Source: Pseudalkalibacillus berkeleyi (GTDB lineage Bacteria > Bacillota > Bacilli > Bacillales > Fictibacillaceae). From it: a stretch of DNA of 64,000 bases. Location: positions 1,302,001 to 1,366,000 of the forward strand of contig NZ_JAKIJS010000001.1 of NCBI RefSeq assembly GCF_021608225.1, read 5' to 3'. Positions 8,021 through 10,607 of the stretch are shown here, piece by piece. The translations under genes were made by a program, and so were the position numbers. Below the pieces are notes generated by a model. That model was given only the letters and a program-made list of their open reading frames with translations, was not told the DNA's origin and made no database searches. How positions within the stretch are numbered: the first letter of the stretch is position 1; the number at the start of each line of letters is the position of its first letter.

Positions 8021-8504
8021 TAAACGCCTCAGTTATTTGGCATTATTTATTGCGCTTTCTGTAATAGGCGCGTCCATAAAAATACCAGCAGTTGTTGGAA
8101 GCATTGCTTTAGATTCATTTCCAGCTTTGGTTGCTGGTGCACTCATCGGTAATATCCCAGGGGCAGTCGTCGCAGCATGTGGACATTTGTTATCTGCATT
8201 ATTTGTAGGGATGCCTCTTGGTCCTATGCATATCGTCGTCGCATTAGAAATGGCGATTCTCGTCTATTTATTCAGTGTACTATACCGAAATGGAAACAAG
8301 ATACTAGCGAGTGGCAGTTTCTTCTTTGGAAATGTATTTCTTGCACCACTTCCTTTCTTATTTTTGATTGGTGTTTCTTTCTATACCGCGATTGTACCAT
8401 CTATACTCGTTGCAACTGCAGTTAATGTTTGTATAGCAGCACTTATAACACCAAGACTTCAATCTTATATGAGTTTTCCAATTGTAAAAGGACGTGCAGG
8501 ATGA
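8013..8504 (+). CDS. cblT: ECF-type S component, probable alpha-ribazole transporter CblT
   Basis: A 163-residue membrane protein with about five or six hydrophobic segments and the small, Ala/Gly-rich make-up of energy-coupling-factor S components. The GTG at 8013 is chosen because the AAGGGTGATC stretch at 7997-8006 matches an extended Shine-Dalgarno sequence; starts at 7956 and 8001 are possible. Firmicutes salvage alpha-ribazole with the transporter CblT and the kinase CblS encoded side by side, and this gene is followed immediately by a PurM-like kinase candidate. No ECF ATPase or T component is nearby, so it would rely on a shared module. Substrate identity is inference from context. 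Confidence 0.7.
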   Translation: MNSKRLSYLALFIALSVIGASIKIPAVVGSIALDSFPALVAGALIGNIPGAVVAACGHLLSALFVGMPLGPMHIVVALEMAILVYLFSVLYRNGNKILASGSFFFGNVFLAPLPFLFLIGVSFYTAIVPSILVATAVNVCIAALITPRLQSYMSFPIVKGRAG

Positions 8505-9205
8505 GAAATGCAATAGTCGAGCACCTATCCAATGATGACTACTTAATCATTACGAATGATAATAGTGGGGGAATCGGAGAAAAGGAGCAAGACTTCATAA
8601 ACGTATCCTATGATCTCCTTAGTTATTACGCCTATCGAGTGGCAGTTGTTGAGTGTATGGCAACAAGAGGTGTACCGAAGTCTATTTTGCTCCATAATTA
8701 CTGTGGTGAAGAACATTGGGACAAGCTTGTAAGTGGAGTAAAGACCGGATTATCAGAGATAGGTTTAGATTATGTTCCAATTAACGGTAGTTCAGAAAGT
8801 AACTATCACTTGAAGCAATCCGCTATAGGATTAGTTTTAATTGCAAGAAGCAAGGCACCAAACATAAGAATACCAAGTTTAGAACCTGACTATCAATTTG
8901 CCGTCATCGGTGAACCACTAGTCGGTCAAGAGGTAACTGAGTATAAAGAACAAATTGCACCTCTATCAGTGATCCAAACCATTAGTACCTTAGAAAAAGT
9001 CTACATGTGGCCAGTCGGTTCAAAAGGAATATTGACCGAACTAAACCAAATGATTGGTAGTGACGTTAAACAGATTGAGTCTAAATTGGACCTTCTTAAA
9101 TCTGCCGGACCTTCAACATGTGTTATCATTGCTTACCCAAGTAGGCATACAAAAGAAATTAAGAAACTTTCTAAAGACCTTTTTTACCCATTGAATATAA
9201 GCTAA
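8501..9205 (+). CDS. cblS: AIR-synthase-like protein, probable alpha-ribazole kinase CblS
   Basis: 234 residues from ATG 8501, which overlaps the previous stop as ATGA. The N-terminal ITNDNSGGIGEKEQDFINVS resembles the ATP/Mg-binding start of the PurM/ThiL/SelD superfamily, and VVECMATRGVPKSIL resembles the following core. CblS of Listeria and Geobacillus is the known kinase that turns imported alpha-ribazole into alpha-ribazole phosphate. The pairing with a CblT-like gene and the operon end at a terminator support this. Another PurM-like phosphotransferase function cannot be excluded. Confidence 0.68.
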   Translation: MRNAIVEHLSNDDYLIITNDNSGGIGEKEQDFINVSYDLLSYYAYRVAVVECMATRGVPKSILLHNYCGEEHWDKLVSGVKTGLSEIGLDYVPINGSSESNYHLKQSAIGLVLIARSKAPNIRIPSLEPDYQFAVIGEPLVGQEVTEYKEQIAPLSVIQTISTLEKVYMWPVGSKGILTELNQMIGSDVKQIESKLDLLKSAGPSTCVIIAYPSRHTKEIKKLSKDLFYPLNIS

Positions 9206-10041: not shown

Positions 10042-10064
10042 CTCATATGACAAAATCATATGAG
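10042..10064 (+). promoter_or_regulatory. Perfect 9-bp inverted repeat in the leader of the PCYCGC lipoprotein gene
   Basis: CTCATATGA (10042-10050) and TCATATGAG (10056-10064) are exact inverted repeats with a 5-base spacer. A TATACT hexamer lies at 10033-10038 just upstream. The right arm merges with the GAGGAG ribosome binding site (10062-10067) of the gene starting at 10074. It could be an operator for a dimeric repressor or an RNA hairpin that hides the ribosome binding site. Confidence 0.6.
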
Positions 10065-10073
10065 GAGTAGATC

Positions 10074-10529
10074 ATGAAATTTAAATTAGGAATCACATTT
10101 ATGATTTCCGTATTAATTCTTGCCGCATGCAGCTCTGGAGAAGATGATCATGCATCCAAAATGACCCACGATATGAACAGTAACGATTGGTCACACTTCG
10201 AAGATATGGGTGTAGATACTTCAACGATTGAAGCGTATGACTTTGCAGTATCACATCCAGAGGTATTAGATTACATACCTTGTTATTGTGGTTGCTATGA
10301 TAGTGCCGGTCACGAAGGTAATACCGATTGCTTTGTCGATCAAGTTGATGACAATGTCGCAGTTCTAGATAACATGGGTCTTGGCTGAGGTATTTGTGTA
10401 GATATAGCCCGTGAGGCTAAATACGAATACAATAAAGGGACAGACCTTAAAACAATTAGAGAAAAAATAGAAAAAAGATATGAAAAAGAGGGGCTTGAGC
10501 CGACTCCTACCCCTATACCATCAACATAA
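10074..10529 (+). CDS. PCYCGC-motif (CYCXC family) lipoprotein with in-frame TGA, candidate selenoprotein
   Basis: Lipoprotein of 151 residues if the TGA at 10386-10388 is decoded. The signal peptide ends LAAC with Cys19. The family motif IPCYCGC is at residues 68-74, and another Cys is at 86. The frame then reads MGLG-TGA-GICVDIARE, so the TGA is the first position of a TGA-x-x-Cys redox motif where, as I recall, family members have Cys-Gly-x-Cys. A further 46 codons follow without interruption, ending EPTPTPIPST and TAA at 10527-10529, resembling the Pro-Thr tail of relatives. A hairpin with bacterial SECIS geometry begins two bases after the TGA, and a terminator follows the distal TAA. 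Read conventionally the product would be only 104 residues and lack the conserved C-terminus. A nonsense mutation is the alternative. Confidence 0.78.
10390..10430 (+). promoter_or_regulatory. Candidate bacterial SECIS element
   Basis: An RNA hairpin starting two bases after the TGA at 10386-10388. GTATTTGTGT (10390-10399) pairs with ATACGAATAC (10421-10430), including two G-U pairs. TAGCC (10405-10409) pairs with GGCTA (10415-10419). AGATA (10400-10404) faces A10420 as an asymmetric internal loop. The apical loop is CGTGA, with G at its second position. There are 21 bases between TGA and loop. Published bSECIS rules ask for a small loop with a G among the first two bases, 16-37 bases after the UGA. 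The hairpin lies inside the coding frame, as in other bacterial selenoprotein mRNAs. Confidence 0.7.
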
Positions 10530-10539
10530 TAATAACTAG

Positions 10540-10572
10540 AGATTGACCTTAAAAATTTGGTCAATCTTTTTT
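10540..10572 (+). terminator. Terminator after the candidate selenoprotein gene
   Basis: AGATTGACC (10540-10548) and GGTCAATCT (10559-10567) form a perfect 9-bp stem followed by a six-base T run. It lies 10 bases after the distal TAA at 10527-10529, not after the internal TGA, which fits the longer reading frame being the gene. Confidence 0.9.
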
Positions 10573-10607
10573 AATTCAAATAAAATTCAAATAAAGGAAT
10601 TGAATGG

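Follow-up and report, generated by a model that had tools for sequence, protein, structure and literature searches.

A PCYCGC-family lipoprotein of Pseudalkalibacillus berkeleyi very probably carries selenocysteine at an in-frame TGA conserved in Bacillales relatives

Introduction

Selenoproteins of the PCYCGC kind are already on record. A 2026 AEM review (PMC13188914) lists a CYCXC family protein (hypothetical protein OS_HP4) with the domain PF13798, a UxxC motif and one Sec, citing for it a 2007 study of a deltaproteobacterial Olavius symbiont, and the equivalog model NF041379 bears the name CYCXC family (seleno)protein; an earlier, sequence-only reading of the locus described here had given the family just such a name, and both sources bear this out. 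Cys-type PCYCGC lipoproteins are also known, with AOT13_14730 of Parageobacillus thermoglucosidasius as an example (PMC13068155). A 2006 survey (PMC1794560) counted three selenoprotein families in Bacillales and left the PCYCGC family unnamed in its main text. Our literature search on selenoproteins of Bacillaceae and Bacillales found no description of a PCYCGC Sec clade, nor any paper mentioning PCYCGC together with selenocysteine. The kind of protein is thus known, while its Bacillales clade and the biology of that clade appear undescribed in the literature found.

Results

A continuous PCYCGC reading frame interrupted by one TGA

The window analysed is a stretch of 64,000 nucleotides of the P. 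berkeleyi genome, and all features of the gene lie on its plus strand. A frame of 151 residues runs from 10074 to 10526 and closes with a TAA at 10527-10529, and it holds a single in-frame TGA at 10386-10388 (residue 105), after which 46 residues follow. The plain ORF list ends the gene at this TGA, giving 104 amino acids. A likely ribosome-binding site (GAGGAG, 10062-10067) stands 6 nt ahead of the ATG, and the first codons (10074-10130) encode a lipoprotein signal peptide with the lipobox LAAC and a predicted lipidation site at Cys19 (codon 10128-10130), a residue invariant in an eight-member Sec-clade alignment and at least 90% conserved in alignment A3. The PCYCGC motif itself occupies residues 69-74 (10278-10295), and His80 and Cys86, C-terminal to it, are also invariant. 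The TGA, a putative selenocysteine 105, opens a U-x-x-C motif (UGIC) that is completed by Cys108. Past the TAA, an intrinsic terminator (10538-10575) was found by RNA folding, with an 11-bp stem that starts 8 nt past the stop and a U run; its energy is -14 kcal/mol, and none of 200 shuffles was as stable, though a consensus terminator scan missed it because its loop is 10 nt long. Of these elements, the split frame, the truncation expected from standard gene calling, the TGA-Gly-Ile-Cys motif and the strong terminator had been pointed out in the sequence-only reading and were recovered here. Elsewhere in the window, a 258-aa frame with a TTG start (8429-9205) follows an ECF transporter S component, adjoins cobalamin-type genes and has no Pfam match.

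The read-through protein belongs to PF13798 (PCYCGC), which matches its residues 11-149 with an E-value of 1.9e-27 (96.4 bits, against a gathering score of 25), so that the homology continues across the TGA. No PF13798 gene other than this one (10074-10529) was found in the P. berkeleyi genome. The NF041379 model, matched by all 31 aligned members (best E 1.4e-22), has a cut-off of 90 bits, which the window protein misses with 71.9 bits; we therefore place it as a relative within PF13798 and not as that equivalog.

A conserved hairpin directly follows the TGA

In known bSECIS elements the loop lies 16-37 nt downstream of the UGA and has a G within its first two bases. RNAfold predicts for the window a hairpin (10390-10430) that has 10+5 pairs and a 5-nt loop, CGUGA, starting 21 nt past the TGA, at -13.8 kcal/mol (z -3.75); both the loop's distance and the G at its second position agree with this rule, as had been proposed. 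The 15-bp hairpin of the sequence-only reading stands only in part. It folds as described, but across relatives pairing in the lower 10 bp (10390-10399 with 10421-10430) holds for just 67.7% of cells, whereas the five apical pairs are formed in 43 of 43 sequences (alignment A2, 100% of cells paired), so that a 15-bp hairpin overstates the functional element. The conserved core is UAGCC-CGUGA-GGCUA (10405-10419, loop 10410-10414), and the CGUGA loop is found in 39 of the 43 sequences.

In this same alignment, three of the apical pairs show changes on both sides (A-U/C-G/U-A, G-C/A-U and C-G/G-C), the covariation score of the apical stem was reached by no shuffle, and RNAalifold independently recovered the same five pairs. 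The compensatory changes that keep the stem are largely synonymous: among the 43 Bacillales Sec copies, the third bases of an Ile and an Ala codon covary as ATA-GCT (35 copies), ATC-GCG (7) and ATT-GCA (1). Since the A-U/C-G/U-A changes are synonymous, constraint on the protein does not explain them.

The TGA is conserved in one clade of the family

When 60 relatives were examined together with P. berkeleyi, eight genomes had a PF13798 copy interrupted by a single TGA, and in the translated copies this TGA was always the first position of U-x-x-C, where Cys-type homologues have C-x-x-C. A profile built from the Sec copies and run over 397 genomes of the order gave a two-peaked score distribution: all 26 matches of at least 167 bits, from 25 genomes, have exactly one internal TGA, and none was seen among the matches listed at 148 bits or less, which are Cys paralogues. 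Full-length SelA was present in 25 of the 25 TGA genomes, compared with 181 of the 397 overall (hypergeometric 1.1e-9, a statistic that ignores shared ancestry). The Sec copies form a separate and well-supported clade in the tree (100/98). Over all pairs of the 43 Sec copies, pN/pS was 0.39 upstream of the TGA and 0.40 downstream, and by this comparative measure the codons past the TGA are under purifying selection. Outside Bacillota, two homologues share the position of the TGA, one from a MAG titled Deltaproteobacteria (L106) and one from a Chloroflexi MAG (L107), and both genomes have SelA; their hairpins keep the CGUGA loop and differ in their stem pairs. Bacillus sp. cl95 has two Sec-type PCYCGC genes (L078 and L079) on one contig, about 10 kb apart.

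In Lentibacillus populi, Oceanobacillus halotolerans and Virgibacillus sp. YIM 98842 (L085, L086 and L088), the TGA site reads TGT, and the hairpin is absent from all three of these Cys orthologues, which form one clade (100/98) nested inside the Sec clade. Full-length SelA is lacking in O. halotolerans and in Virgibacillus sp. YIM 98842 and is present in L. populi, so Cys serves in a SelA-positive genome too. A switch from Sec to Cys within a single clade, with the hairpin lost and two of three genomes without SelA, amounts to a natural experiment on Sec retention.

The genome encodes the selenocysteine machinery

The P. berkeleyi genome contains selC, selB, selA and selD. One tRNA-Sec scores above the Rfam cut-off (59.9 bits) and is called by ARAGORN as tRNA-SeC with anticodon TCA, SelB (353 bits) is encoded 1.5 kb away, and SelA (552 bits) and SelD (420 bits) follow within about 10 kb, with the three protein identities confirmed against NCBIfam. 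MnmH, the tRNA selenouridine synthase, is encoded close by. SelD often carries an in-frame TGA itself, and the selD found here (L009:17028-18075, minus strand; about 1101027-1102074 of genome contig C1) has one in GGUGCK, with a plain caller starting late, at a GTG past the TGA. A resolvase-like serine recombinase gene (L009:10977-11558) separates the tRNA-Sec from selB. Between selB and selD (L009:13546-16993) are a GT4 glycosyltransferase, which scores below cut-off against models for the GPMC system and for the SenB selenosugar synthase, and an ABC transporter of the PhnDEC type. The binding protein of this transporter also matches a 'putative selenate' SBP model, likewise below cut-off; the two are a candidate module for selenium uptake and selenosugar synthesis.

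A selenocysteine formate dehydrogenase was considered as a further Sec client and set aside: among the matches listed for the P. berkeleyi genome no TGA-bearing copy was seen, and some related genomes have one. In four genomes that combine SelA with a PCYCGC gene of the Sec type (G034, G080, G117 and G310), nothing matched the formate dehydrogenase alpha family, so something else, perhaps the PCYCGC selenoprotein, keeps the machinery in use there.

Selenocysteine, termination or readthrough

The plain ORF caller ends the gene at the TGA, which could then be an ordinary stop that leaves a 104-residue lipoprotein, or the mark of a pseudogene derived from a Cys-type PCYCGC gene. Decay does occur in the family, since one genome (G009) has a disrupted, pseudogene-like Cys-type copy (L058, G009:C46:7000-8000) with a TAG and a frame break. 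Such a stop is nevertheless difficult to reconcile with a downstream frame that evolves under purifying selection and keeps its homology to PF13798 up to its end, with the recurrence of the TGA at one site in 25 genomes, with the covariation of the hairpin and with the presence of SelA in every TGA genome; given the comparative data, termination or decay is strongly disfavoured, and we think it very improbable. Reading of the UGA by a near-cognate tRNA, for example that for Trp, would also account for the downstream conservation. It would not lead one to expect Cys at position 105 in the translated TGA-less homologues, nor a bSECIS-type hairpin alongside the entire Sec machinery, nor a replacement of Sec by Cys that comes with loss of the hairpin and, in two of three genomes, absence of SelA, and this makes it the most improbable of the readings weighed here.

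Selenocysteine at UGA 10386-10388 is thus, on comparative grounds, the reading that we hold with high confidence. It had been proposed from the sequence alone together with findings that would count against it, and these point the other way: selA, selB, selC and selD are all present within about 10 kb, homologues have the Cys of the usual Cys-x-x-Cys at residue 105, and close strains keep the TGA and conserved codons beyond it instead of ending there. The accompanying expectation that selenoproteins are rare in Bacillaceae does not hold at the level of the machinery, given the frequency of full-length SelA in the order. The comparative evidence supports a recoding of UGA10386 through the conserved hairpin immediately 3' of it, with the encoded SelB, tRNA-Sec, SelA and SelD as the apparatus and with translation continuing past Sec105 for the remaining 46 residues up to the TAA. 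SelB would engage the hairpin with the CGUGA loop, and the product would be exported and probably lipidated at Cys19, giving a membrane-anchored, outward-facing selenoprotein.

A possible role in metal handling or thiol redox

In an AlphaFold2 model (pLDDT 88, pTM 0.78), Sec105 directly precedes a helix (106-120). A PDB sequence search found no relative of the PCYCGC protein, and Foldseek gave no match at E <= 0.001. Gene neighbourhoods were compared for 35 loci of the Sec clade, a set that contains the three Cys orthologues, with close relatives counted separately and cluster representatives checked against Pfam. A metal or thiol-redox gene lies within about 2.5 kb in about 22 of the 35, by manual count and Pfam, and the Pfam-confirmed neighbours comprise CopC, CopD, SCO1, a heavy-metal P-type ATPase usually accompanied by an ArsR-type regulator, ZnuA, cation efflux, TlpA, CcdA and YtkA. 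In Halalkalibacter akibai, for example, the gene is in line with CopC-CopD, and TlpA and YtkA follow; TlpA-CcdA are directly upstream of it in Bacillus sp. B1-b2, and SCO1 and a cation efflux gene are near it in Calidifontibacillus and in Ammoniphilus, respectively. By inspection, Cys-type paralogues mostly have other neighbours, namely genes for an ABC transporter and for a HIT-like protein, and a minority lie near SCO1-like or iron-type binding proteins. The neighbours in P. berkeleyi itself, an RNase H-like YkuK-type protein and a beta-lactamase-family hydrolase, have no metal link, and the proposed role therefore rests on the relatives.

These neighbourhoods suggest an extracytoplasmic role in metal handling or thiol redox, for which we see roughly as much reason for acceptance as for doubt. 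Sec105, which stands where the helix begins and is paired with Cys108 through the U-x-x-C motif, could form with Cys70, Cys72, Cys74, Cys86 and His80 a redox-active and/or metal-binding selenol/thiol site. In relatives this site would probably act on the outside of the membrane, either in the handling of copper or zinc or in thiol-disulfide exchange, and its electrons could plausibly come from CcdA and a thioredoxin of the TlpA/ResA type.

The protein might instead be a CcmH-like thiol reductase acting in cytochrome c maturation or oxidase assembly, and not a protein that binds or delivers metal. In the structural comparison, periplasmic domains of CcmH rank first and second, with Z of 4.3 and 3.8 that are far under the trust level, and some relatives have a CcdA, TlpA or SCO1 neighbour gene. 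An hhalign comparison with CcmH covered 35 columns (P 2.5e-4, a level that none of 200 column shuffles reached), but its score of 29.2 was nearly equalled by the unrelated decoys CopC (28.6) and SCO1 (27.3); an ArsR decoy set was ignored because PCYCGC fragments contaminated it. As no CcmH Pfam match (PF03918) is listed for any of 31 members either, we set CcmH homology aside, and regard a CcmH-like role as unlikely.

Discussion

Taken together, we tentatively hypothesise, as a picture that may well not hold in full, that extracytoplasmic selenoproteins with a lipid anchor form a clade spread throughout Bacillales, in which CxCxC and UxxC would build a selenol/thiol site that handles copper or zinc and receives its electrons from CcdA-TlpA. 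In genomes such as that of P. berkeleyi, for which the matches listed include no selenoprotein formate dehydrogenase, such a protein could be the chief user of Sec apart from SelD. Because the ORF caller stops at 104 residues and the NF041379 cut-off is missed, misannotation is likely for a selenoprotein that at least 25 of the 397 genomes sampled from one order have conserved. Moreover, its gene neighbourhood offers a testable functional hint for PF13798/OS_HP4, which is still labelled 'unknown function'.

Compared with CYCXC/OS_HP4 (NF041379), the Bacillales proteins share the Pfam family PF13798, the UxxC motif and a single Sec per protein, but they are lipoproteins, form a clade of their own (100/98) and have a SECIS with a nearly fixed CGUGA loop, and the window protein scores 71.9 bits against that model's 90. 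The SelD gene of P. berkeleyi likewise contains a TGA in frame and, a short way downstream of it, a G+C-rich hairpin, although SelD is a selenium-activating enzyme of an unrelated family and lacks an export signal. Among known relatives, the Cys-type PCYCGC lipoproteins of Bacillaceae are alike in the PF13798 domain, the lipobox, PCYCGC, the other conserved cysteines and a C-terminal Thr-Pro motif; they differ in having Cys for Sec and a WDDHG-type sequence before the motif, where the Sec clade has LDxMG, and they form a separate clade, which coexists with a Sec copy in one genome (G049).
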